64,000 nucleotides of DNA from Gloeobacter morelensis MG652769. Its GTDB lineage: Bacteria; Cyanobacteriota; Cyanobacteriia; Gloeobacterales; Gloeobacteraceae. The number at the start of each line of letters is the position of its first letter. The first letter of the stretch is position 1. The notes under the pieces are model-generated. The model was not told where the DNA came from. It was given only the letters and a program-made list of their open reading frames with translations, and ran no database searches. Location of the stretch: contig NZ_CP063845.1 of the NCBI RefSeq assembly GCF_021018745.1, forward strand, positions 3,224,001 through 3,288,000, written 5' to 3'. The translations under genes were made by a program, and so were the position numbers. Of the stretch, positions 14,503 to 57,448 are shown in pieces.

Positions 14503-14676
14503 ATGTATCCGGCGATGGAAGAATATTTGATCGCGCGCGGCCTGGTGAGCGAACGGCAACTGCAGCGCGCCGGAGAACTGGCGCAACTGTGGCAGGGGAC
14601 GGTGCCGGTGGTGCTGTGGAAACTGGGCTGGATCGACTTGAACACATTTGCGGCACTGCTCGAATATTCGGTGTAG
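14503..14676 (+). CDS. DUF2949 family small protein
   Basis: A 57-residue soluble protein. EEYLIARGLVSERQLQRAGELA followed by VPVVLWKLGWIDLNTFAALLEY matches the two short helices and the LW-x-GWIDL core that I associate with DUF2949, a small cyanobacteria-specific family of unknown function. The start ATG at 14503 follows GAGG at 14493-14496. The reading frame is open far upstream (to 13987), but that portion is antisense to the oxidoreductase gene. It is probably in an operon with the 40-residue membrane protein before it. Confidence 0.75.
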   Translation: MYPAMEEYLIARGLVSERQLQRAGELAQLWQGTVPVVLWKLGWIDLNTFAALLEYSV

Positions 14677-14695
14677 AGCAGGTGTCAGGATTGAA
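14677..14695 (+). repeat. Dispersed AGCAGGTGTCAGG repeat, copy 1
   Basis: AGCAGGTGTCAGG followed by TTGAAAA, immediately after the DUF2949 stop codon. The same 13-mer plus TGAAAA occurs at 49769, and a variant (AGCAGGTGTCGGG) starts in the stop codon at 49502. Confidence 0.6.
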
Positions 14696-48639: not shown

Positions 48640-49503
48640 ATGGATTCGGATTTGCTCAGTTTGCTGCCCCGGGTGGAAGCGATCGACCGCCGCACGTTCA
48701 TTGTGACCACCCTGGCGGCAGGTTTTGCCCTGGCGGTCTTGCCGGTGGGAGCGGCGACCATCAACACCGACACCACCGGACTGACCGCCGGGGAAGTGAA
48801 AATCCCGGTCAAAGACGGCGAGATCCCCGCCTACCGGGCGATGCCCGCCACCGGCAACAACCTGCCGGTGGTTCTGGTCGTGCAGGAAATTTTTGGCGTC
48901 CACGAGCACATCAAAGATGTCTGCCGCCGCTTCGCCAAACTCGGCTACTTCGCCATCGCCCCCGAACTGTACGCCCGCCAGGGAGATGTCTCCAAGCTGC
49001 AGGACATCAAGGCGATCTCCGAGGTGGTGAGCAAAGTGCCCGACGCCCAGGTGATGTCCGACCTCGACGCCGCCGTAGCTTACGCCGCAAGCACCGGCCG
49101 GGTGAATGCCGAGAAGCTGGCCGTCACCGGTTTTTGCTGGGGCGGGCGGATCACCTGGCTCTACGCGGCCCACAACCCGAAAGTCAAAGCCGGGGGCGCC
49201 TGGTACGGCCGCCTGGTGGGCCAATCCAGCCCCAACACTCCGACCTACCCGGTCGATGTCGCCCCCAAGATCAAAGGGACGGTCCTGGGCCTCTACGGCG
49301 GCCAGGATCAGGGCATTCCCGTCTCCACCGTCGAGCAGATGCGCAAGGTACTCAAAGAATCGGGCAACCCCTCGGAGATCCTCGTCTACGAACAGGCCCC
49401 CCACGGCTTCCACGCCGACTACCGCCCAAGCTACCGCCCGGAAGCGGCCCAGGACGCCTGGCAAAAACTGCTTGCCTGGTTCAAGAAGTATGGGGTCGCG
49501 TAG
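48640..49503 (+). CDS. Exported dienelactone hydrolase family protein
   Basis: A 287-residue alpha/beta hydrolase. The N-terminus has a twin-arginine-type signal: [20 protein letters not shown]. The DLH fold follows with [23 protein letters not shown], the nucleophile Cys in [14 protein letters not shown], the acid in [11 protein letters not shown] and His in [13 protein letters not shown]. Cys-type DLHs act on dienelactone or related esters; the natural substrate here is unknown. The stop codon TAG overlaps the start of a dispersed repeat. Confidence 0.92.
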
Positions 49504-49549
49504 CAGGTGTCGGGGTAAGATCGCTGCCTGTCCAGGTTTCCGGCCATCC
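49502..49549 (+). repeat. 48-base direct repeat, copy A
   Basis: Begins AGCAGGTGTCGGGGTAAG and ends AGGTTTCCGGCCATCC. It aligns without gaps to copy B (49769-49816), with 34 of 48 bases identical and best conservation at both ends. Copy A begins inside the stop codon of the dienelactone hydrolase gene. Confidence 0.65.
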
Positions 49550-49701
49550 TTCCGGTACCGCGACTTACCCAAATCTGTGCCGCAGTCGACACGCGTCGTG
49601 CACGCACTGGATGAATGAGCCTATCCCACCCACCGACTCTCCCGCCCACCATGCCGATAAGTCCGGGGGTGTCGGGGCTGGCAGCCCCTCGACGCGGGGG
49701 G

Positions 49702-49760
49702 GAGAGCGCGAGAGGGCACCCGAAGGGGGTGCCGCCTCTCGCCCCACAGACCGTCGTGCA
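49702..49760. repeat. Dispersed hairpin repeat, copy 1
   Basis: GAGAGCGCGAGAGGGCACCC, a short loop, then GGGTGCCGCCTCTCGC followed by CCCCACAGACCGTCGTGCA. The arms form 7 bp (49708-49714 with 49736-49742) and 7 bp (49715-49721 with 49727-49733), separated by a 2-base bulge. A second copy is at 55049-55109 with paired changes in the stem. It lies in a 337-base gene-free gap between the dienelactone hydrolase and VOC genes. Confidence 0.75.
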
Positions 49761-49768
49761 CAGCCAGC

Positions 49769-49816
49769 AGCAGGTGTCAGGCTGAAAACCATTGCCATCG
49801 AGGTTTCCAGCCAGCC
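49769..49816 (+). repeat. 48-base direct repeat, copy B
   Basis: Begins AGCAGGTGTCAGGCTGAAAA and ends AGGTTTCCAGCCAGCC. It matches copy A (49502-49549) at 34 of 48 positions and the short copy at 14677. It directly follows the hairpin repeat and, with it, fills most of the 49504-49840 gap; no gene is seen there. Confidence 0.65.
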
Positions 49817-49840
49817 TCGTCTTGGCAACTGAAAGCCGCT

Positions 49841-50254
49841 CTAAACGCTCCCCTCGGGGATCAGGCAATAAAACGAGCAGCGGTGCCCGTCGGGATCGTG
49901 CAAGTTGAGGGCAACTTCCCGCGCCGCCAGAGCCGCATGAACAAATTCACGGCGCTCAAAAGCGATCCCCTGGGTGCAGAAACGCTCCGCCAACGCCTCC
50001 AGAGCCTGTTCGTCCGCGATCTTCCAGCCAAAGCGCACCGGCAAAACTCGCCCCTTCAAAAGCAACAATTCCAGGCCATAAACGGCAAACAGGACGTACC
50101 CGGCTTCGCTTCCCACCTGCGCCCGCCCATTGAGCAGCCGCTCATAAAACGCCTGGGAGCGCACCAGATCCGCAGTGCCCAGCTCGATATGAACCGCCCG
50201 GACAGCCGTGTCAAAATCGTCTGGCTGTGCTTTGGATGTCTGTGTGTCTTTCAC
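49841..50254 (-). CDS. VOC (glyoxalase/bleomycin resistance) superfamily protein
   Basis: A 137-residue protein of two beta-alpha-beta-beta-beta units. VHIELGTADLVRSQAFYERLLNGRAQ is the first motif (metal His/Glu region) and REVALNLHDPDGHRCSFYCLI the second, with HDPDGHRCSFY typical of the fold. Members are lactoylglutathione lyases, resistance proteins or dioxygenases; no specific role can be assigned. Its 5' end overlaps the divergent GNAT gene by about 11 bases (GNAT start at 50244), so promoters of each must lie inside the other gene, or one annotated start is too long. Confidence 0.85.
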   Translation of the reverse strand: MKDTQTSKAQPDDFDTAVRAVHIELGTADLVRSQAFYERLLNGRAQVGSEAGYVLFAVYGLELLLLKGRVLPVRFGWKIADEQALEALAERFCTQGIAFERREFVHAALAAREVALNLHDPDGHRCSFYCLIPEGSV

Positions 50255-50717
50255 CGTCGCTCCCGTCCGCTGGCAGGACCACCAGCAAGCACTCTACTAC
50301 GTGCGCCGGGTGGTCTTTATCGAAGAGCAAAACGTTCCGCCTGAGATCGAAATCGACGAGTGGGATACTCTGAGCGTCCACGCCCTGGCCTGCGACGCCG
50401 AAGGAAGGCCCATCGGCTGCGGCCGACTCCTCCCGGACGGGCACCTTGGACGGATGGCGGTGCTTGCCGCCTGGCGCGGCCGGGGGGTGGGAAAGGCTCT
50501 ACTCGAGTGCCTGCTTTCCCTGGCACAGGACACGGGCATGGAAACCGTCGAACTGAGCGCCCAAGTGCACGCCCAGCCCTTCTACGAAAAATTCGGCTTC
50601 AAAGCTTTTGGCGAAATCTACGACGAGGCAGGCATCCCGCACCGGGCGATGCGGCGGGTGCTGCCGCAGGATACTCGCCGCCCTCAGCAGATCTCAACGC
50701 AGGAGCCGAGGACCTGA
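50244..50717 (+). CDS. GNAT family N-acetyltransferase
   Basis: About 157 residues from GTG 50244 (frame open to 50208). The fold is a single GNAT domain: ALYYVRRVVFIEEQNVPPEIEIDEWD is the N-terminal motif of the ElaA/YjcF-like group. The acetyl-CoA loop is LGRMAVLAAWRGRGVGKALLECLL and the C-terminal core is VELSAQVHAQPFYEKFGFKAFGEIYDEAGIPH. The substrate is unknown. It is divergent from the VOC gene with overlapping 5' ends, and its 3' end overlaps the convergent DUF2227 gene by 24 bases. Confidence 0.88.
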   Translation: MSFTVAPVRWQDHQQALYYVRRVVFIEEQNVPPEIEIDEWDTLSVHALACDAEGRPIGCGRLLPDGHLGRMAVLAAWRGRGVGKALLECLLSLAQDTGMETVELSAQVHAQPFYEKFGFKAFGEIYDEAGIPHRAMRRVLPQDTRRPQQISTQEPRT

Positions 50718-51245
50718 TATCTGCACTCGGCGGCGCCTGCGGCGACGAACCAGCCGCTTCCAGGCGCTGCCCGTCCAATCGCTGAGGCTATGGCTCATCG
50801 CCCCCAACTCCAAACCCACCAGCCCCCAAACCACCGTGGAAGTGTTGGCGCCACACCACAGCGACAGCATCTGCCAGGCTCCCTGCCAATCGAGGCTCGC
50901 CCCCGTCAGCCACTCGAACACCGGGGCTGCCGGCACCCCCAAACTGACTGTCACGATCGCCAGATACAGGAGCCTGCCCAGGGTGCCTATCAGCGGCCCG
51001 TGGGAAAAAAGCGAGCGGTGCGGGGCAATACGCCGATAGGGCAGCCAGAGCCAGCGCAGCAACCCCCAGCGGCGGTACTGGACGGAGTGGGTATCCAGGT
51101 CGCCCCCGAACATCAACCCCGCGAACAGATAGGCGCACGCCGCGCTCACGGCGGCCTCGAAGGTACCGCTCACCAACCAGACGGCGGCACCGGCGGCAGG
51201 TACGCTCCACCAGGTGATCCGGTCGTGGGTGCGGCCCAGGGGCAT
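50694..51245 (-). CDS. DUF2227 putative metal-binding membrane protein
   Basis: A 183-residue membrane protein. GRTHDRITWWSVPAAGAAVWLV, FGGDLDTHSVQYRRWG, PHRSLFSHGPLIGTLGRLLYL and LELGAMSHSLSDWTGSAW give the His/Asp pattern of DUF2227 (a phage-holin- or lipase-like metal-binding group common in cyanobacteria), with about three membrane helices. The last 15 residues are a run of arginines (RRRRRRRVQ). ATG at 51245 lies 2 bases before the deoxyribosyltransferase stop, so they share a transcript. Confidence 0.85.
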   Translation of the reverse strand: MPLGRTHDRITWWSVPAAGAAVWLVSGTFEAAVSAACAYLFAGLMFGGDLDTHSVQYRRWGLLRWLWLPYRRIAPHRSLFSHGPLIGTLGRLLYLAIVTVSLGVPAAPVFEWLTGASLDWQGAWQMLSLWCGANTSTVVWGLVGLELGAMSHSLSDWTGSAWKRLVRRRRRRRVQISGPRLLR

Positions 51246-51247
51246 CC

Positions 51248-51676
51248 TCAGCCCCCGTGCGGATAGTCAGCCTCAAACTTCGCCACCAGCTCGTCGATGC
51301 TTGCCAGCAACTGCCGGGCAGCCCCCCGCAGCATCAGATTTGGGTAGCGCGCCCGGTCGGGATAACCGTAGGCCATCTCGCTGCGCAGGGCGTAGACAGG
51401 TTTGGAGCGGGCGTAGGCGTAGCCCACCTCGAAGGCCGTTCCCGAGTCGGCGTCGGCTCCCGAAAGATTGGCCACCACAACGGCGCTGGCATCGATGCCC
51501 GCCACACAGCGCGCGAAGACTTCCTCTGCCCCGGCGTCGGCGGGAATTTGCGCCTGCGGCAAAAAGACCCGCCCCAGGGGGGCGAGTCTTGCGGCCAGTT
51601 CGGCCTGGTAGGCCTGCTCGTAGGCGTTAAAGAGCGGTCCTGCCACGTAGAAACGGTAGGAATCAAGCCCACTCAC
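51248..51676 (-). CDS. Nucleoside 2-deoxyribosyltransferase-like protein
   Basis: About 142 residues from GTG 51674-51676, immediately after the TonB-like gene stop (51678). YRFYVAGPLFNAYEQAYQ is the family N-terminal motif, followed by ASAVVVANLSGADADSGTAFEVGYAYARSKPVYAL with the catalytic Asp and Glu and the D-x-G-x-A-x-E pattern. The enzyme would swap or hydrolyse bases of deoxynucleosides in salvage. The frame is open to 51817, but it there overlaps the neighbouring gene antiparallel in frame content. Operon with the genes on both sides. Confidence 0.88.
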   Translation of the reverse strand: MSGLDSYRFYVAGPLFNAYEQAYQAELAARLAPLGRVFLPQAQIPADAGAEEVFARCVAGIDASAVVVANLSGADADSGTAFEVGYAYARSKPVYALRSEMAYGYPDRARYPNLMLRGAARQLLASIDELVAKFEADYPHGG

Positions 51677-51677
51677 C

Positions 51678-53240
51678 CTAGAATCCCCGCCCGCCGACAT
51701 CGACACCACCGAAGACGTTGATGTCGAAGGTGAACTGGATCTCAATGCGGTCACCTTTGTAGGCGACGGGCAAGGGACCAAATGGAGCCGCGCGCTGCAC
51801 CGCTTCCATAGCCGCATTGTCGGAGGAGGTCGAGCCGGAGGAGCGGCCGACCCGCAGGTTCATGATTTGCCCGCTGCGCGAGACGGTAAACAGCAGCACC
51901 GTGCGCCGGGAATTGCCCGCCTCAGGAGCGATCCAGTTGCGCTTGACCTTGCGCTGCAAGGCGGCCATGTAGGGGCCAAAATCGACATCCTGGGCAGCGT
52001 CGATGCCCGAGCCGTCGCCGTCGCGCCCGGGATTGAGGGTGCCGCTCTCGCCCAAGCCGCCATTGCCGCCGCTGCCGCGGCTGGCGCTCAGGGGACCGCC
52101 CAGGGCCGAGGCGGGCGCCAGGGAAGATCCCGAAGTGGCACTGGAGCGCGAGGCGCGGCGCTTGGGAGCCGGGGCGGGCGGAGCGGGCTCCGGGGTCGTC
52201 TCCTGGGGAAGCGGGGCCAGTTCGGGGCTGGTCTCTTTCGGCGGCTCCTCGATCTTGGGCAGCACCGCCTCCGGCGAGGGCGGCGGGGCGGCCTTCGGCT
52301 TGGGAGCCGGGGTGGGTTTAGGCTGCTCCGGCCGGGGGGTCGGCTGCTCGGCCCGGGGCGGGGGCGGCGTGGGCCGCGGCCGCGGCTGCGGGGTGGGCCG
52401 GGCCTGCGGGGCGCCCTTCACCCCCGCGTCGGTGGGCAGTTGGCGGTTGCGCTTTTTGGCGGTCGAGTTGGCGTTGGCCTTAGGAGCATTCGGCGGCGGC
52501 TTGACCTTGTCGGTCGGGTCGATGAGCGTAAATTCCATCGGTGGCGCCGGCGGTTCGGGCGGCGTCAATTCCGGAAATTTGATATTGAGCGCTTCGAAGA
52601 GCAGCGGAATGATAATTGCCAGTACCGCCGCCGCCACGGCCACCAGCAGGTGAATAAACAAAGACGAAACAATCGCCGGATACAGATTGGCACTGGTGCG
52701 GCGCGGATCGGCAATCACGCGGGTGTTGGCGAACTTGTCCGGCAGACCCTGCTTTTCGCCGTCCAGGCTTGCAAAGATAAACGCAAGCACCAGCAAAAAG
52801 CCGCTGGCCAGAAGACCAAAGAGTACCGAGCCGAACACGTAACCGACAAAAAGGGCACCCCCCAAAATCAAATAGCTGATCAGGTGCCGCTTGAGCAGCG
52901 TGCCGAGGTTCAGGTCGCTCTCGTCGGCGCTCACCATGCGGATGCCCACCAACCGCTGGCCCACCGTCTGGCCCTTGTGGCTAAGCGGCCAGATGAGGTA
53001 GTTGCCCAGGGCGAGGATGGCGTAGAGCCCCAGAGTACCCAGAGCGAGCGCGGCCCCGTCTGGCCCCGCCCCAAACAGCGACAGCAGAGCGCCGAACACC
53101 TGGGCGAGGGTAAAGGCCACGAGCAGCAACAGCGCCTGATCGAGAATCAGGGCACAGAATCGATACCACAGGCTCGCCAGGGGCTTGAGCACCTGCAGCC
53201 TGGCAGTCGATCGGGTCCGGGTCAGAAGATTGGCTGTCAT
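51678..53240 (-). CDS. RDD-TonB fusion protein
   Basis: A 520-residue membrane protein. The N-terminal RDD domain (about 20-165) has helices LILDQALLLLVAFTLAQVFGALL and LYAILALGNYLIWPLSHKGQTVGQRLVGIRMV. A further helix (IHLLVAVAAAVLAIIIPLLF, about 195-215) corresponds to the TonB anchor. A Pro/Lys-rich periplasmic spacer (about 220-360) and a C-terminal TonB domain (about 420-515) follow, the latter with DFGPYMAALQRKVKRNWIAP and TVLLFTVSRSGQIMNLRV. TonB couples inner-membrane energy to outer-membrane receptors. An RDD domain in front of it is unusual. No exbB/exbD adjoins. It leads an operon with the deoxyribosyltransferase and DUF2227 genes. Confidence 0.88.
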   Translation of the reverse strand: MTANLLTRTRSTARLQVLKPLASLWYRFCALILDQALLLLVAFTLAQVFGALLSLFGAGPDGAALALGTLGLYAILALGNYLIWPLSHKGQTVGQRLVGIRMVSADESDLNLGTLLKRHLISYLILGGALFVGYVFGSVLFGLLASGFLLVLAFIFASLDGEKQGLPDKFANTRVIADPRRTSANLYPAIVSSLFIHLLVAVAAAVLAIIIPLLFEALNIKFPELTPPEPPAPPMEFTLIDPTDKVKPPPNAPKANANSTAKKRNRQLPTDAGVKGAPQARPTPQPRPRPTPPPPRAEQPTPRPEQPKPTPAPKPKAAPPPSPEAVLPKIEEPPKETSPELAPLPQETTPEPAPPAPAPKRRASRSSATSGSSLAPASALGGPLSASRGSGGNGGLGESGTLNPGRDGDGSGIDAAQDVDFGPYMAALQRKVKRNWIAPEAGNSRRTVLLFTVSRSGQIMNLRVGRSSGSTSSDNAAMEAVQRAAPFGPLPVAYKGDRIEIQFTFDINVFGGVDVGGRGF

Positions 53241-53277
53241 AAGGGCATGGCTGGAGCGGAATTCCCCGCGTTGAGCT

Positions 53278-54132
53278 TTATTGTACTGATTGCTGGGCGC
53301 ACTGGCAGGTGGGACAGAAGTGGGTCGAGCGGCCCGCCAGCCGGATGCGCTCGATCAGGCTATGGCAGACGCGGCAGGGCTGGCCTTTGCGCCCGTACAC
53401 CCAGGCGGTGCCGGCGTAGTTGCCGTTGATGCCCTGGGCGTCGGTGTAGTTGCGCAACGTCGCGCCCCGCTGCGCGATACCCGCTTCGAGCACCTTGACT
53501 ACGGCTCGGTGCAAGCGTTCGAGGGCAGCCGCGTCAAGCCCGCCTACGGGCAGGGCGGGATGGATGCCACTGCTGAAGAGGGCCTCATCGGCATAAATGT
53601 TCCCCACTCCCGCCACCAGTTGTTGATCGAGCAGGGCGCTTTTGACCGGCTGGTTGCGCCCGGCGAAGCGCCCCGCCAGGTACCGGCCGTCGAACATCTC
53701 AGCAAAAGGCTCGGGACCAAGCCGGGCGAGCCCGCCCATCACCCGCTCCGGGGGCACCCCCACCGGAATCAGCCAGAGCCGACCAAAGACGCGCATGTCC
53801 TCAAAGCGCAGTTCGTGACCGCTCGCCATGGGTATCCGGACCCTGGTATGGGGTTCCAGGGGAGCTTCGGCACGGCGCCAGAGCAACCTCCCCGACATGC
53901 GCAGGTGCACTCCCATGGCCGCCCCTTGCTCGAAGTAGAGCAGCAGGTACTTGCCGCGCCGAAGCATCCTATCGCTGAAGACCTGGCCTGTCATCTGTGC
54001 GCTGAAAACGGCCGGATCGGCGGGGTAACCGACCGAATCGCTGCGCAAAACCTCCACACCCGCCACCCGTTCGCCGGGCAGATGGATGAGGAGGTCGCGG
54101 CGCAGCGTTTCGACTTCGGGCAGTTCGGGCAC
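53278..54132 (-). CDS. mutM: Formamidopyrimidine-DNA glycosylase
   Basis: Removes 8-oxoguanine and Fapy lesions (base-excision repair) using N-terminal Pro as the nucleophile. The 284-residue protein starts PELPEVETLRRDLL after the initiator, has the catalytic Lys in MLRRGKYLLLYFE, the H2TH region VAGVGNIYADEALFSSGIHP, and a zinc finger at the C-terminus (CRVCHS and HFCPTCQCAQ). The GTG start at 54130-54132 lies directly next to the psaE stop codon, so it is co-transcribed with photosystem I gene psaE. Confidence 0.97.
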   Translation of the reverse strand: MPELPEVETLRRDLLIHLPGERVAGVEVLRSDSVGYPADPAVFSAQMTGQVFSDRMLRRGKYLLLYFEQGAAMGVHLRMSGRLLWRRAEAPLEPHTRVRIPMASGHELRFEDMRVFGRLWLIPVGVPPERVMGGLARLGPEPFAEMFDGRYLAGRFAGRNQPVKSALLDQQLVAGVGNIYADEALFSSGIHPALPVGGLDAAALERLHRAVVKVLEAGIAQRGATLRNYTDAQGINGNYAGTAWVYGRKGQPCRVCHSLIERIRLAGRSTHFCPTCQCAQQSVQ

Positions 54133-54330
54133 TTAGGCTTCGACTTCTTCCAGTTCGCTGACGCCAAAGTTGTTGGTGTTGATCCCCGAGTAGTTGACCT
54201 TCTCGAAGCGGACCGTCACCGGGTAGATCGTCCTTTCGTTCTTATCGACCGACGCAACCGTACCCACCTCCCGATACCAGTAGGACTCCTTGCGCAGGAT
54301 ACGGACTTTGGCACCTCTTTCAATGGCCAT
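54133..54330 (-). CDS. psaE: Photosystem I subunit IV (PsaE)
   Basis: A 65-residue stromal-side peripheral subunit of photosystem I that helps dock ferredoxin and supports cyclic electron flow. [28 protein letters not shown] and [20 protein letters not shown] are canonical. The start MAIERG at 54330 is chosen over the open frame to 54348. Its stop (54133-54135) is followed at once by the mutM GTG. The upstream neighbour, divergent, is a small exported protein at 54591. Confidence 0.97.
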
Positions 54331-54590
54331 AGCGTTCGCCTTTCTCACATACGGGTGTGCGCCGTGTTCACATTACCGCGAAGGCCCGAGACCACCGGGC
54401 CATCCTTTACACAATGCAACGATTGGCGCGTTTTGCTATCGGCAGGCGGACACGCCATTGCTCGCTGCCACCGGCGACCATCACCTGTGGGCCGGAAAAT
54501 AGACGGCACCTGCTCCAAAACTTGCGGCTGGCTGAACTGAACCGACGGGTACAGCGTCAGAAGTCCAACACCGAACGTCGAGGCAACCGC

Positions 54591-54872
54591 ATGCGCAGCG
54601 CACTGGTTTTGTTACTGATCGGGTCGGCACTGGCGCTTCCGGGCGCTACCTTGGCCCAGAACTCTCCCTACCAGGGTTCCTCACCCTACGGGTATACCGG
54701 CGGCGCCTATCCTCAGGCCGGTAGCGCCAGCAGTGCCACTCGCCGGGCACAGCTTCGCCAGCGTTGGGCACAACTGAGCCCTCAGCAGCGGCAACAAATT
54801 CTCCAGCGCTACCGGCTCAAACAGCGCTCCCAGGGTGGTATGGGGCGGCCCGGCGGATTCGCCCGGCCTTAA
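54591..54872 (+). CDS. Exported small protein with Gln/Arg-rich C-terminus
   Basis: A 93-residue protein from ATG 54591: signal peptide (SALVLLLIGSALALPGATLAQ), then a Ser/Gly/Tyr segment (SPYQGSSPYGYTGGAYPQAG) and a basic helix (RRAQLRQRWAQLSPQQRQQILQRYRLKQRS). It resembles periplasmic DUF-type proteins in which a WxxLSPxQRQxILxRY helix is repeated in other bacteria. Function unknown. Divergent from psaE; an earlier start at 54357 is open but includes non-coding sequence. Confidence 0.72.
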   Translation: MRSALVLLLIGSALALPGATLAQNSPYQGSSPYGYTGGAYPQAGSASSATRRAQLRQRWAQLSPQQRQQILQRYRLKQRSQGGMGRPGGFARP

Positions 54873-55048
54873 GGCACGAGCCCTTTTGCGCCGAAGGCTT
54901 CCCGCTTGTCATAAACAAAATACATCGTTCTGATTGATTGCGTTTATGGTGAAGGGTAGAAACATGCGCGCATTTGCGAAGTGCCTCGGCGCGGCGGGGG
55001 TAGTAGCCTGCCCGGTCGTCGGTGTCCCGCCGGTCCTGGCGGCATTGG

Positions 55049-55109
55049 AGAGCGCGAGAGGGGAAGCGCGCAGGGGGTTCCGCCTCTCGCACCCACAGAC
55101 TGTCGTGCA
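55049..55109. repeat. Dispersed hairpin repeat, copy 2
   Basis: GGAGAGCGCGAGAGGGGAA, a longer loop, then GGGGTTCCGCCTCTCGC followed by ACCCACAGACTGTCGTGCA. The outer 7 bp (55054-55060 with 55084-55090) are identical to copy 1 at 49702-49760. The inner stem reads GGAA/TTCC here where copy 1 reads GGCACCC/GGGTGCC, so pairing is retained. It lies in a 254-base gap before ftsY. Confidence 0.7.
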
Positions 55110-55126
55110 AAACCAACCGCCAAATA

Positions 55127-57448
55127 TCAGGCGGCGTCGTAGTCGCTCAAAAGCGCCTCGACAAACTCGTAGCTATTAAACGGCCGCAGATCGTCAATCT
55201 TTTCACCCACGCCCACAAAGCGAATCGGCAGCTGCAACTGCTCGACAATCGCCAGAGCGATCCCCGCCTTGGCCGACCCATCCAGCTTGGTGATCACCAC
55301 ACCAGTCAGTCCCGCCGTCTCGCCAAACACCTTGGCCTGCTGCAGGCCGTTCTGGCCGGTAGTCGCATCGAGCACCAACAACGATTCGATGTGGGCATCG
55401 ATCGCCTGCTTGTCGATGATCCGGCGCACCTTGGCCAGCTCATCCATCAAGTTCTTCTTATTCTGTAAACGGCCCGCCGTATCGACCAGAAGCAACTCGA
55501 CATCGCGGGCCTTCGCAGCGCTGATCGCATCGAAGACGACCGCCGCCGGGTCGGCCTTTGGCGAAGGATTGGCCACCACCGTCACCCCGGAGCGCTCGCC
55601 CCAAATGGATAGCTGCTCGACCGCCGCAGCCCGGAAAGTATCACCGGCAGCGATCAATGTCCTATATCCCGAGCGGGTGGCCAGCGCCGCAATCTTGCCG
55701 ATCGTCGTCGTCTTGCCCACACCGTTGACCCCGACGATCAACCACACATTGAGCTGACCACGCTTGGGAGCAAAACCGGTCGGGTCGTCCCCTTCAAGTT
55801 CGAGTTGTTTGCGCAGCTGCGATTTAAGAAAAGGCAGCACCTGGTCACCGGGGAGCGCTTCGCGGCGCACCCGCTCCTGCAGCGCCGCCAGAATCCGCTC
55901 GCTGACGGTGATTCCCACATCGGCCTGCAGCAGCAAGCCTTCGAGTTCTTCCAGTTCATCGGGACCGATCGGCCCACGCCCGGCCAGCGCCTTGACGTTG
56001 TTGACCAGGCTGCGGCGGGTGCGCCCGAGCCCGGCGCGCAATTTCTGCAGCCAGGAAATTTCTTCGACGGTGACATCTTCAGGGCGACGACCCTGGGCTG
56101 CGAGCACCTCCGCCGACCACAAAAATCCGGCATCCAGTTCAAAGCGGGGCTTGGGCTGAGCAGCCGCCGCCTGCTCAGCGGCCGGTGGCGGCGGAGGAGG
56201 AGGCACCACAGGTTGAGGAGCAGGCGGCGGCTCGGGGACGACAGGCGGCTGCACCGGCGGTGTCTCGGGAGTCCGGGGTCGATTGAGAAAGCGACGCCAA
56301 TCGAAGACGGGCGGAGCCGCCGGGGGCTCCGCTGCAGGCGGTGCAGCCTCAGCGGCCGGAGCTTCAGGAGCAGCCGGGGCCGGAGTTTCAGGAGGTGCCT
56401 CGACCGGCCGATTGCGATTGAGAATGCGGCGCCAATCAAATAGAGGGGCACTCGCCGGAGACTCCGGTGGCGGTTCAGCCGGTGGGGCGGACGGCGGCGG
56501 TTCGACCGGAGCGCCCTCGGCCGCCGGTGGAAAAATTGGCGGCGCTTCGACAGACGGCACCACCTCCTCCTCAACCGGCGGCGGTTCCTCAGCCGCCGGC
56601 ACCTCGACCGTTTCAGCCTCAAAAACCGGGGATATCTCCACCGCTGCAGGCAACTCGGGCTCCGGCGGTTCCACAACAGGTGCCGGTTCTTCTTCAGCCA
56701 CCGGCAAAGCAGGCAATGTCTCGGCTTGCGGCAGCGGCTCGACCGGTACTTCGGCCACCGTCAACGGCGCCGACTCCACCGGCAAAATTTCTTCCTCAGC
56801 CACCGGTGCCGAAGGAAATTCCTCCACTAGCGGCTCAACGACTGGTTCCACCGCCGGGGGTTCCGGCGCTTCTACCACTGGGCTTTCAAAAGCGGGAGCC
56901 GCTTCCAGCGATGCGGGTGGAGCCTCAGCGACGGGCGGCTCGACGGGGGCAATAGGCCTGGTGCCATACAAAACGGCCTGCCAGTCGAAAGCGGCAGGAC
57001 TGACCTGAGGCGGTTCCGGGACCGGGGAAGTTGGGGCGACAGCCGGTGGCGGTGGTGGCGGGATGACCGCCTCGGTAACCGGTGGCGTTGCGGTAGGAGG
57101 CGGTGGCGGCTCGACCGGTGCGGCGGGTTTGGTGCCGTACAGGACCGCCTGCCAGTCGTAAGCGGGCGCACTCGGCGGCTCGATGGGCGGTGCCAGGGGC
57201 GCTTTGGCGGCGGGCGCTTCTGCAAAGGCGGCGGGAGCCTCCGGCTCTACCGCAGGCTGCTCGGCCAGTTCCTGGTTGAGCTTTTCCTGGGCGAGGCGTG
57301 CCCACTTCATGTAGTCGGGCTCAGCGGCCGGTTCTTCTACTGGTGCGGGCGGCTGGGCTTCAACCGGCTCCTGGGCTTGGGTGGGTTCGGGAGTGGGCTC
57401 TTCTTTTTTGTCCTTTTTGATAAATCGATTGAACCAGTTGAAGACCAT
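55127..57448 (-). CDS. ftsY: Signal recognition particle receptor FtsY with very long Pro/Ala/Glu N-terminus
   Basis: A 773-residue SRP receptor GTPase. The C-terminal NG domain (about 460-770) is typical: helical N part LQKLRAGLGRTRRSLVNN, P-loop GVNGVGKTTTIGKIA, GDTFRAAAVEQL, DTAGRLQNKKNLMDEL and TKLDGSAKAG. It docks ribosome-SRP complexes at the membrane. The N-terminal extension of about 455 residues is Pro/Ala/Glu-rich and contains four Trp motifs: YDWQAVLYGTKP (97-108), FDWQAVLYGTRP (154-165), FDWRRILNRNRP (337-348) and FDWRRFLNRPRT (382-393). FtsY A domains are usually much shorter. Starts at 57448 with an amphipathic basic helix (FNWFNRFIKKDKK). Confidence 0.95.
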   Translation of the reverse strand: MVFNWFNRFIKKDKKEEPTPEPTQAQEPVEAQPPAPVEEPAAEPDYMKWARLAQEKLNQELAEQPAVEPEAPAAFAEAPAAKAPLAPPIEPPSAPAYDWQAVLYGTKPAAPVEPPPPPTATPPVTEAVIPPPPPPAVAPTSPVPEPPQVSPAAFDWQAVLYGTRPIAPVEPPVAEAPPASLEAAPAFESPVVEAPEPPAVEPVVEPLVEEFPSAPVAEEEILPVESAPLTVAEVPVEPLPQAETLPALPVAEEEPAPVVEPPEPELPAAVEISPVFEAETVEVPAAEEPPPVEEEVVPSVEAPPIFPPAAEGAPVEPPPSAPPAEPPPESPASAPLFDWRRILNRNRPVEAPPETPAPAAPEAPAAEAAPPAAEPPAAPPVFDWRRFLNRPRTPETPPVQPPVVPEPPPAPQPVVPPPPPPPAAEQAAAAQPKPRFELDAGFLWSAEVLAAQGRRPEDVTVEEISWLQKLRAGLGRTRRSLVNNVKALAGRGPIGPDELEELEGLLLQADVGITVSERILAALQERVRREALPGDQVLPFLKSQLRKQLELEGDDPTGFAPKRGQLNVWLIVGVNGVGKTTTIGKIAALATRSGYRTLIAAGDTFRAAAVEQLSIWGERSGVTVVANPSPKADPAAVVFDAISAAKARDVELLLVDTAGRLQNKKNLMDELAKVRRIIDKQAIDAHIESLLVLDATTGQNGLQQAKVFGETAGLTGVVITKLDGSAKAGIALAIVEQLQLPIRFVGVGEKIDDLRPFNSYEFVEALLSDYDAA

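Follow-up and report, generated by a model that had tools for sequence, protein, structure and literature searches.

A hairpin repeat scattered over the genome of Gloeobacter morelensis MG652769 was analyzed from a 64,000-nucleotide stretch of its sequence (contig NZ_CP063845.1, positions 3,224,001 to 3,288,000 of the forward strand), which is called the window here and has its own numbering. We conclude, with a probability of about 0.72, that the hairpins form the interior of a non-autonomous element found in the Gloeobacter violaceus group, similar to a miniature inverted-repeat transposable element (MITE), which inserts into TA and is seated on stop codons. In this primitive cyanobacterium the family comprises about fifty short pieces of mobile DNA, and their readable ends often sit exactly on a stop codon. 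A sequence-only reading had reported two hairpins in the window as a dispersed repeat with paired stem changes; that description was correct but incomplete, in that the hairpins lie within a longer core of about 200 bp, of which they are the most strongly conserved part.

Both reported hairpins were present, at 49708-49742 and 55054-55090 on the plus strand, with the common tail CCCACAGAC-GTCGTGCA. A genome search with the pattern GCGAGAGG-N8-30-CCTCTCGC found 46 sites in the G. morelensis genome (G000) and 0 with the reversed pattern as a control, a count far above chance. Alignment of the copies showed a core of about 203 bp in all, which consists of a head with GCCGCAGTCG, hairpin 1 (GTCGGGG..CCCCTCGAC), hairpin 2, which is the one reported, and the tail ACCCACAGACTGTCGTGCAAAACCAACTGCCAG. 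The core was searched for with a covariance model, at most 150 candidates being scored per genome. At E <= 0.001 the model gave 60 matches in the own genome, 51 in G. violaceus (G003), 42 in a metagenome-assembled genome (MAG) of Aphanocapsa lilacina (G002) and 0 in G. kilaueensis (G001). The repeat is neither restricted to two copies nor lacking conservation in a sister strain. An nhmmer search of the collected loci found 49 copies in the own genome (43 covering more than 150 model positions) and 41 in G. violaceus (40 covering as many). At the level of the order, 5 of 9 genomes matched, the two outside the genus weakly (G005 once, at 3e-10, and G007 four times, at best 4e-5). In a sample of the phylum, searched with stricter filters, 2 of 194 genomes matched: besides the own genome there was one more, at 4.6e-4. 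The exact hairpin pattern was found on 6 contigs among the GTDB r220 species genomes, all from the A. lilacina MAG; that collection may lack entries close to the own genome.

Several core copies bear arms that end in TA-GAGCAGGTGTCAGG on the left and GAAAACCGCTC-TA on the right. Terminal inverted repeats are thus present, as in MITEs (TAGAGC(A/G)G at both ends), but they are short and imperfect. In the window, the whole composite element (TA...TA) lies at 49501-49843 on the plus strand and measures 343 bp; its ends were read from the sequence, the ends of the open reading frames (ORFs) and the arm ends, and its arms terminate in TAGAGC... and ...GCTCTA. The left arm (49501-49578) has an eroded terminus, TAGCAGGTGTCGGGG. 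The core common to the family (49579-49769), placed by nhmmer and alignment, contains hairpin 1 (GTCGGGGCTGGCAGCCCCTCGAC) at 49671-49693, located by sequence and family pair counts, and hairpin 2, the reported stem, located by the pattern search and pair counts. The right arm (49770-49843) ends in CCGCTCTA. The core occupies the same site in G. violaceus and in the A. lilacina MAG. Other core-bearing units measured 344 bp plus TA (copy 323704), 303, 326 and 377 bp, the last two being orthologous. The units were thus of MITE size, below 500 bp and without a transposase gene, with the exception of copy 4267010, which was larger, at about 510 bp. The left part of this copy (4266788-4267010 of the own genome) is longer than elsewhere and includes a stretch unseen in other copies, possibly captured DNA. 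The left end, with at most 2 mismatches, was found at 39 sites in the own genome, 34 in G. violaceus, 31 in the A. lilacina MAG and 2 in G. kilaueensis, while reversed controls gave 0-2 sites per genome. Inspection of 29 left ends also yielded five short elements with both ends and no core (72, 84, 91, 96 and 133 bp), and two more core-less elements measured 97 bp (locus L113) and 91 bp (L123).

Empty sites were examined for 12 own copies without a counterpart in G. violaceus, the flanks being searched in G. violaceus and the A. lilacina MAG. Two clean empty sites were found, both in G. violaceus, for copies 323704 and 4267010. At 323704, a 344-bp insert stands between CATGCTTTA and (GCT)CTAATAG, where G. 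violaceus reads CATGCTCTAATAG. At 4267010, G. violaceus reads GGCTAAATTTCGCGG and the own genome GGCTAGAACTC...CGCTCTAGATCTCGCGG. Both sites fit insertion at TA with duplication of the TA, and at both the whole arm-core-arm unit is absent, with the break at the arm ends. Two further sites, in addition to these 12, are empty in G. violaceus but not clean: that of 1964853, with 16 extra bases there and a TA that fits on one side only, and that of 3138508, without a clear junction. At 1384957, 2282362, 3415225 and 4492444, both flanks were present in G. violaceus with other, core-free DNA between them. An autonomous copy hidden at these four sites was considered and rejected, as the G. violaceus frames were non-transposase by eye and no matching end pair was seen. 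One flank was found in G. violaceus for 511384 and 902507, and no match for 1863840, 1865714 and 3103962. The site of 1362271 is occupied in G. violaceus; the core is interrupted by a transposase-like frame, IS4-like by eye (L173:740-2215).

At each of the two clean empty sites, the stop codon of the G. violaceus gene is a TAA that coincides with the insertion TA, and the inserted copy makes it TAG. The window unit spans from one stop codon to another. Its first TAG (49501-49503) ends a dienelactone hydrolase (DLH)-family gene (48640-49503, plus strand; Pfam DLH 7.2e-62), and its last bases, CTA at 49841-49843, are the stop codon (TAG) of a convergent 137-aa gene (49841-50254, minus strand; no Pfam match, glyoxalase-like by eye only). 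The element fills the gap between the two genes and supplies both stop codons. The DLH gene ends in TAG at the same codon in G. kilaueensis, which is without the element, and in the A. lilacina MAG. In the G. violaceus ortholog, CAG stands in place of the stop codon, and the reading frame continues for five codons inside the element up to a TAA. Relatives of the 137-aa gene were found by tblastn in G. violaceus (81%), the A. lilacina MAG (93%) and G. kilaueensis (56%); in the MAG the convergent gene terminates otherwise, in TAA.

The stop-codon seat was quantified at arm ends that are part of the 106 left ends counted; loci were obtained for 30, which favours well-kept ends. Among non-redundant left ends with TA, the terminal TAG/TAA was in frame with at least 100 open codons at 39 of 49, compared with 9 and 5 for the other two frames. 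The same test on right ends gave 15 of 24 in frame (4 and 2 for the other frames). When orthologous sites were merged and TA-less ends admitted, an in-frame stop was present at 27 of 41 left ends and 9 of 23 right ends, and among the remaining ends 4 on the left and 3 on the right had another frame open. As a baseline, the window contains 29 stop-codon TA and 312 intergenic TA, which is 29/341 or 8.5% (58 simple gene calls). For left ends the binomial p was 1.3e-19, or 1.7e-14 if a higher baseline of 13.5% is assumed; for right ends it lay between 6e-5 and 2e-3. For core-bearing copies only, left ends were recognisable in 11 of 43 own copies and 11 of 41 G. violaceus copies, and right ends in 8 and 6, respectively; in-frame stops were present at 10 own and 10 G. 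violaceus left ends, and at 6 and 6 right ends. The gene neighbourhood was also analyzed for 87 copies covering at least 100 model positions. The neighbours were convergent for 43, tandem for 27 and divergent for 7, while 5 copies lay inside a called ORF and 5 had no call. Convergent neighbours were therefore found for 43 of 77 copies, compared with 126 of 545 adjacent gene pairs in the window and the G. violaceus stretches (Fisher p 1e-8, with orthologous copies counted twice).

The measured units of 303-377 bp (one about 510 bp) consist of arms with short inverted ends around the core with its two GC-rich hairpins, and we propose that this element inserts into TA. Where the target is the TA of a TAA or TAG stop codon, the stop would be recreated as TAG, because the first base inside the element end is G, and the gene end would be retained. 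The element would presumably be mobilised in trans, by an IS630/mariner-type transposase with TA specificity, and hairpins left between convergent genes may serve as putative 3'-end roadblocks. A mobile element whose end restores the stop codon at its landing site would have a simple way of spreading harmlessly where genes are densely packed, and no selection for RNA structure would be needed to account for extragenic repeats at gene ends. A far-reaching form of this proposal holds that the transposase prefers TA in stop codons or at convergent gene ends, and that the TA-G end rebuilds the stop, which would give a self-concealing element carrying a bidirectional hairpin roadblock into gene ends. 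In this full form we consider it unlikely.

The earlier reading inferred selection for structure from the stem changes, and pairing was tested on 25 pairs of the two hairpins in 79 aligned cores with 500 shuffles. The paired change in the reported stem is real: one inner pair was A-U in 64 cores, C-G in 12 and unpaired in 3. In hairpin 1, one pair was C-G in 38, G-C in 20, G-U in 1, unpaired in 5 and gapped in 15. However, the paired changes are concentrated at these two positions, and the reported hairpin has 15 pairs, 11 of which are invariant. Paired cells made up 97.4% compared with 95.1% in shuffles, cells changed on both sides numbered 34 compared with 11.0, and the covariation score was 0.057 compared with 0.024, each value being reached by 0 of 500 shuffles. 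Kinship among the rows inflates these three figures in the shuffle control, and related sequences can pass it without structure. Pairs changing on both sides were only 3 of 25, a number reached by 126 of 500 shuffles. The stability of the window copy's folds did not exceed that of shuffled sequences (z -1.0, -0.6 and -0.9). Pairing is kept, as had been claimed, but the fold scores and the 3 of 25 pairs do not amount to strong selection on an RNA fold. Correction within a palindrome would yield the same symmetric changes.

Several observations weigh against a TA-inserting unit of arms and core. Only 2 of the 12 sites were cleanly empty, and at four others the difference between the genomes goes beyond the element. 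The duplication at 323704 could also have been longer than TA (GCTYTA). No recognisable right end was found within 1.5 kb for 16 of the 29 inspected left ends, and intact ends were unrecognised in most core copies (a left end was recognised in 22 of 84, a right end in 14 of 84). The same core is also flanked by arms of a second type (ATATCGAATCC...); their sequence ATATCGAATCCG occurs at 16 own-genome sites with at most 1 mismatch (control 0) and borders the core in other copies. In two copies, the core is inverted relative to the arms (1964853) or to the flanks (217341/2002603). With two arm types bordering the same core and the core inverted in these two copies, arms and core may be separate units. 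The core could instead be a mobile or recombining unit of its own that repeatedly entered short arm-type MITEs, which would make the composite nested, and the occurrence of arms without core points the same way. This is a serious but rather unlikely explanation, as both clean empty sites lack the entire arm-core-arm unit and the core-less element L113 has a doubled CAGGT..CAGG motif, which is expected if arm-only copies arose by core loss. The stop-codon seat, for its part, could be survival bias only, with other insertions lost or their ends decayed and the ends at stop codons keeping TA by selection. TA was kept at 27 of 27 in-frame left sites compared with 10 of 14 others, and at 9 of 9 compared with 9 of 14 on the right, which speaks against pure target preference and indicates that decay of unselected ends contributes; the sampled loci also favour well-preserved ends. 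On the other hand, the seat persists at the 27 of 41 left ends counted with TA-less ones, and intergenic TA far outnumber stop-codon TA in the window. We regard survival bias alone as quite plausible, at somewhat less than an even chance.

The earlier suggestion of transposase-mobilised palindromes held for a MITE-like element, given the dispersed copies, the short inverted ends, the two clean TA-fitting empty sites and the sites that differ between species. Mobilisation by a RAYT or IS200-like enzyme was not supported. The hairpins, the mostly extragenic positions and the many copies would suit a repetitive extragenic palindrome (REP) or REPIN moved by a RAYT, but the own genome has only four Y1_Tnp genes, and the core was absent from all four regions of 6-6.5 kb around them. 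Three of these loci look by eye like insertion sequence (IS) loci, two lying beside TnpB-like frames and one beside a transposase-like frame. In addition, the element has short inverted ends and TA junctions instead. This origin is highly improbable. The unit measures about 300-380 bp, and REPs and REPINs are palindromes of 20-40 bp with a GTAG or CGTC tag. DDE_3 (IS630-type) matches numbered 10 in the own genome and 6 in G. violaceus. Among the two multi-copy DDE_3 families of these two genomes, no transposase with matching ends was found, which is a further point against the proposed element; the two families (9 and 3 copies) end in TAAGTAGGC.. and TATAGCTGTCG.., unlike the element arms, and were rejected as the IS630-type partner. 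A conserved structured RNA or bidirectional terminator selected at gene ends, possibly a domesticated element, would accord with the enrichment between convergent genes, with the three pairing figures above all 500 shuffles and with the 18 sites common to two species. However, the convergent position also follows because of insertion at stop codons. The window copy showed no fold stability beyond shuffles and no intrinsic terminator (0.5 expected by chance), and Rfam gave 0 matches in 6 copy-bearing loci and only a tRNA in the window. G. kilaueensis has no match, many sites were not shown to be shared, and the core was inverted in place; a selected RNA is therefore improbable, though less so than a RAYT-moved palindrome.

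Changes after insertion were examined by comparing the copies of the element between the two species. For the 49 own copies, in the G. violaceus stretches compared, both flanks were found around a copy for 18, around a core-less site for 2 and at distant places for 4, one flank for 4 and none for 21. Conversely, 18 of the 41 G. violaceus copies matched one own copy on both sides, 1 had a displaced flank, 5 had one flank and 17 none. In only 6 of the 18 shared pairs was the orthologous G. violaceus copy the one most similar to the own core, which points to homogenisation among copies. The mean core identity was 0.887, compared with 0.880 and 0.875 for the flanks, figures that are lowered by badly aligned pairs. 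The flank alignment of 217341/2002603 is meaningless, because the core is inverted in place relative to the flanks. Copy 346581 unites flanks that lie beside two different G. violaceus copies (2913378 and 4280574), as would be expected for recombination between copies. Weaker distant-flank cases were 4034270 (one 68% match) and 4452294 (duplicated flanks). From these patterns, inserted copies would appear to homogenise, invert and recombine with each other. Gloeobacter genomes are described as strongly rearranged (PMC13237429, PMC3806779, in the parts available), and copies scattered in this way, including at least one that unites the flanks of two different copies, are a concrete substrate for such rearrangement. 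Two own core copies are split by inserts, at 911913-913081 (about 0.9 kb) and 2205453-2205872 (about 0.2 kb).

The element was compared with known systems by their descriptions in the accessible parts of the papers. RUP of Streptococcus pneumoniae, an IS630-Spn1-dependent MITE, is likewise a short non-coding repeat with inverted ends and a TA target (PMC2229807). However, RUP has a matching IS630 partner, whereas none was found for the Gloeobacter element, and the available text mentions no stop-codon seat for RUP. Correia/NEMIS and ERIC elements share TA termini, inverted repeats and stem-loops by description (PMC2229807), but they belong to other hosts, and the Gloeobacter element has a two-hairpin core and arms that also occur core-less. 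Most bacterial MITEs are reported to have TA at their termini, and QMITE1 and QMITE2 are described as MITEs of similar size (PMC5896051). One QMITE2 copy of Coxiella burnetii lies at the enhC 3' end beside a stop codon (PMC5896051); in the portion available this is a single case, whereas the Gloeobacter seat recurs over many sites, and it is the nearest parallel found. Nezha is likewise a MITE of cyanobacteria (PMC3733652, PMC10969869). GTAG/CGTC REPs and REPINs with RAYTs are also dispersed, largely extragenic palindromes according to the available text (PMC3733652, PMC3116915), but the Gloeobacter unit is larger, has TA junctions and has no core near Y1 transposase genes. The family is undescribed in the accessible parts of PMC3116915, PMC6006769, PMC3733652, PMC3806779, PMC10969869, PMC13237429, PMC2229807 and PMC5896051. 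A literature search on Gloeobacter repeats, MITEs, small dispersed repeats and stop codons found no description of it either, a result that leaves subscription papers mostly uncovered and does not imply unpublished status. TA-type MITEs are known; it is possible that their stop-codon-seated variant is new, with a mechanism that we infer and a seat to which survival bias may contribute.

The second window copy is a remnant at 55047-55122 on the plus strand, which corresponds to core positions 128-202 and has lost the left part. Its hairpin 2, located by the pattern search, has the inner arm GGAA/TTCC. The remnant lies beside an ftsY-like gene (55127-57448, minus strand; Pfam SRP54 2e-73). G. 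violaceus has a complete copy (259851-260054) adjoining the same ftsY-like gene and a further copy (261443) beside a synteny break, while the own genome retains the remnant only. The FtsY-like protein has a long N-terminal extension rich in proline and glutamate. The window also contains the left end of a core-less arm-type repeat (14674-14689, plus strand), whose right end was not recognised and whose TAG is in frame with an open frame of 282 codons.

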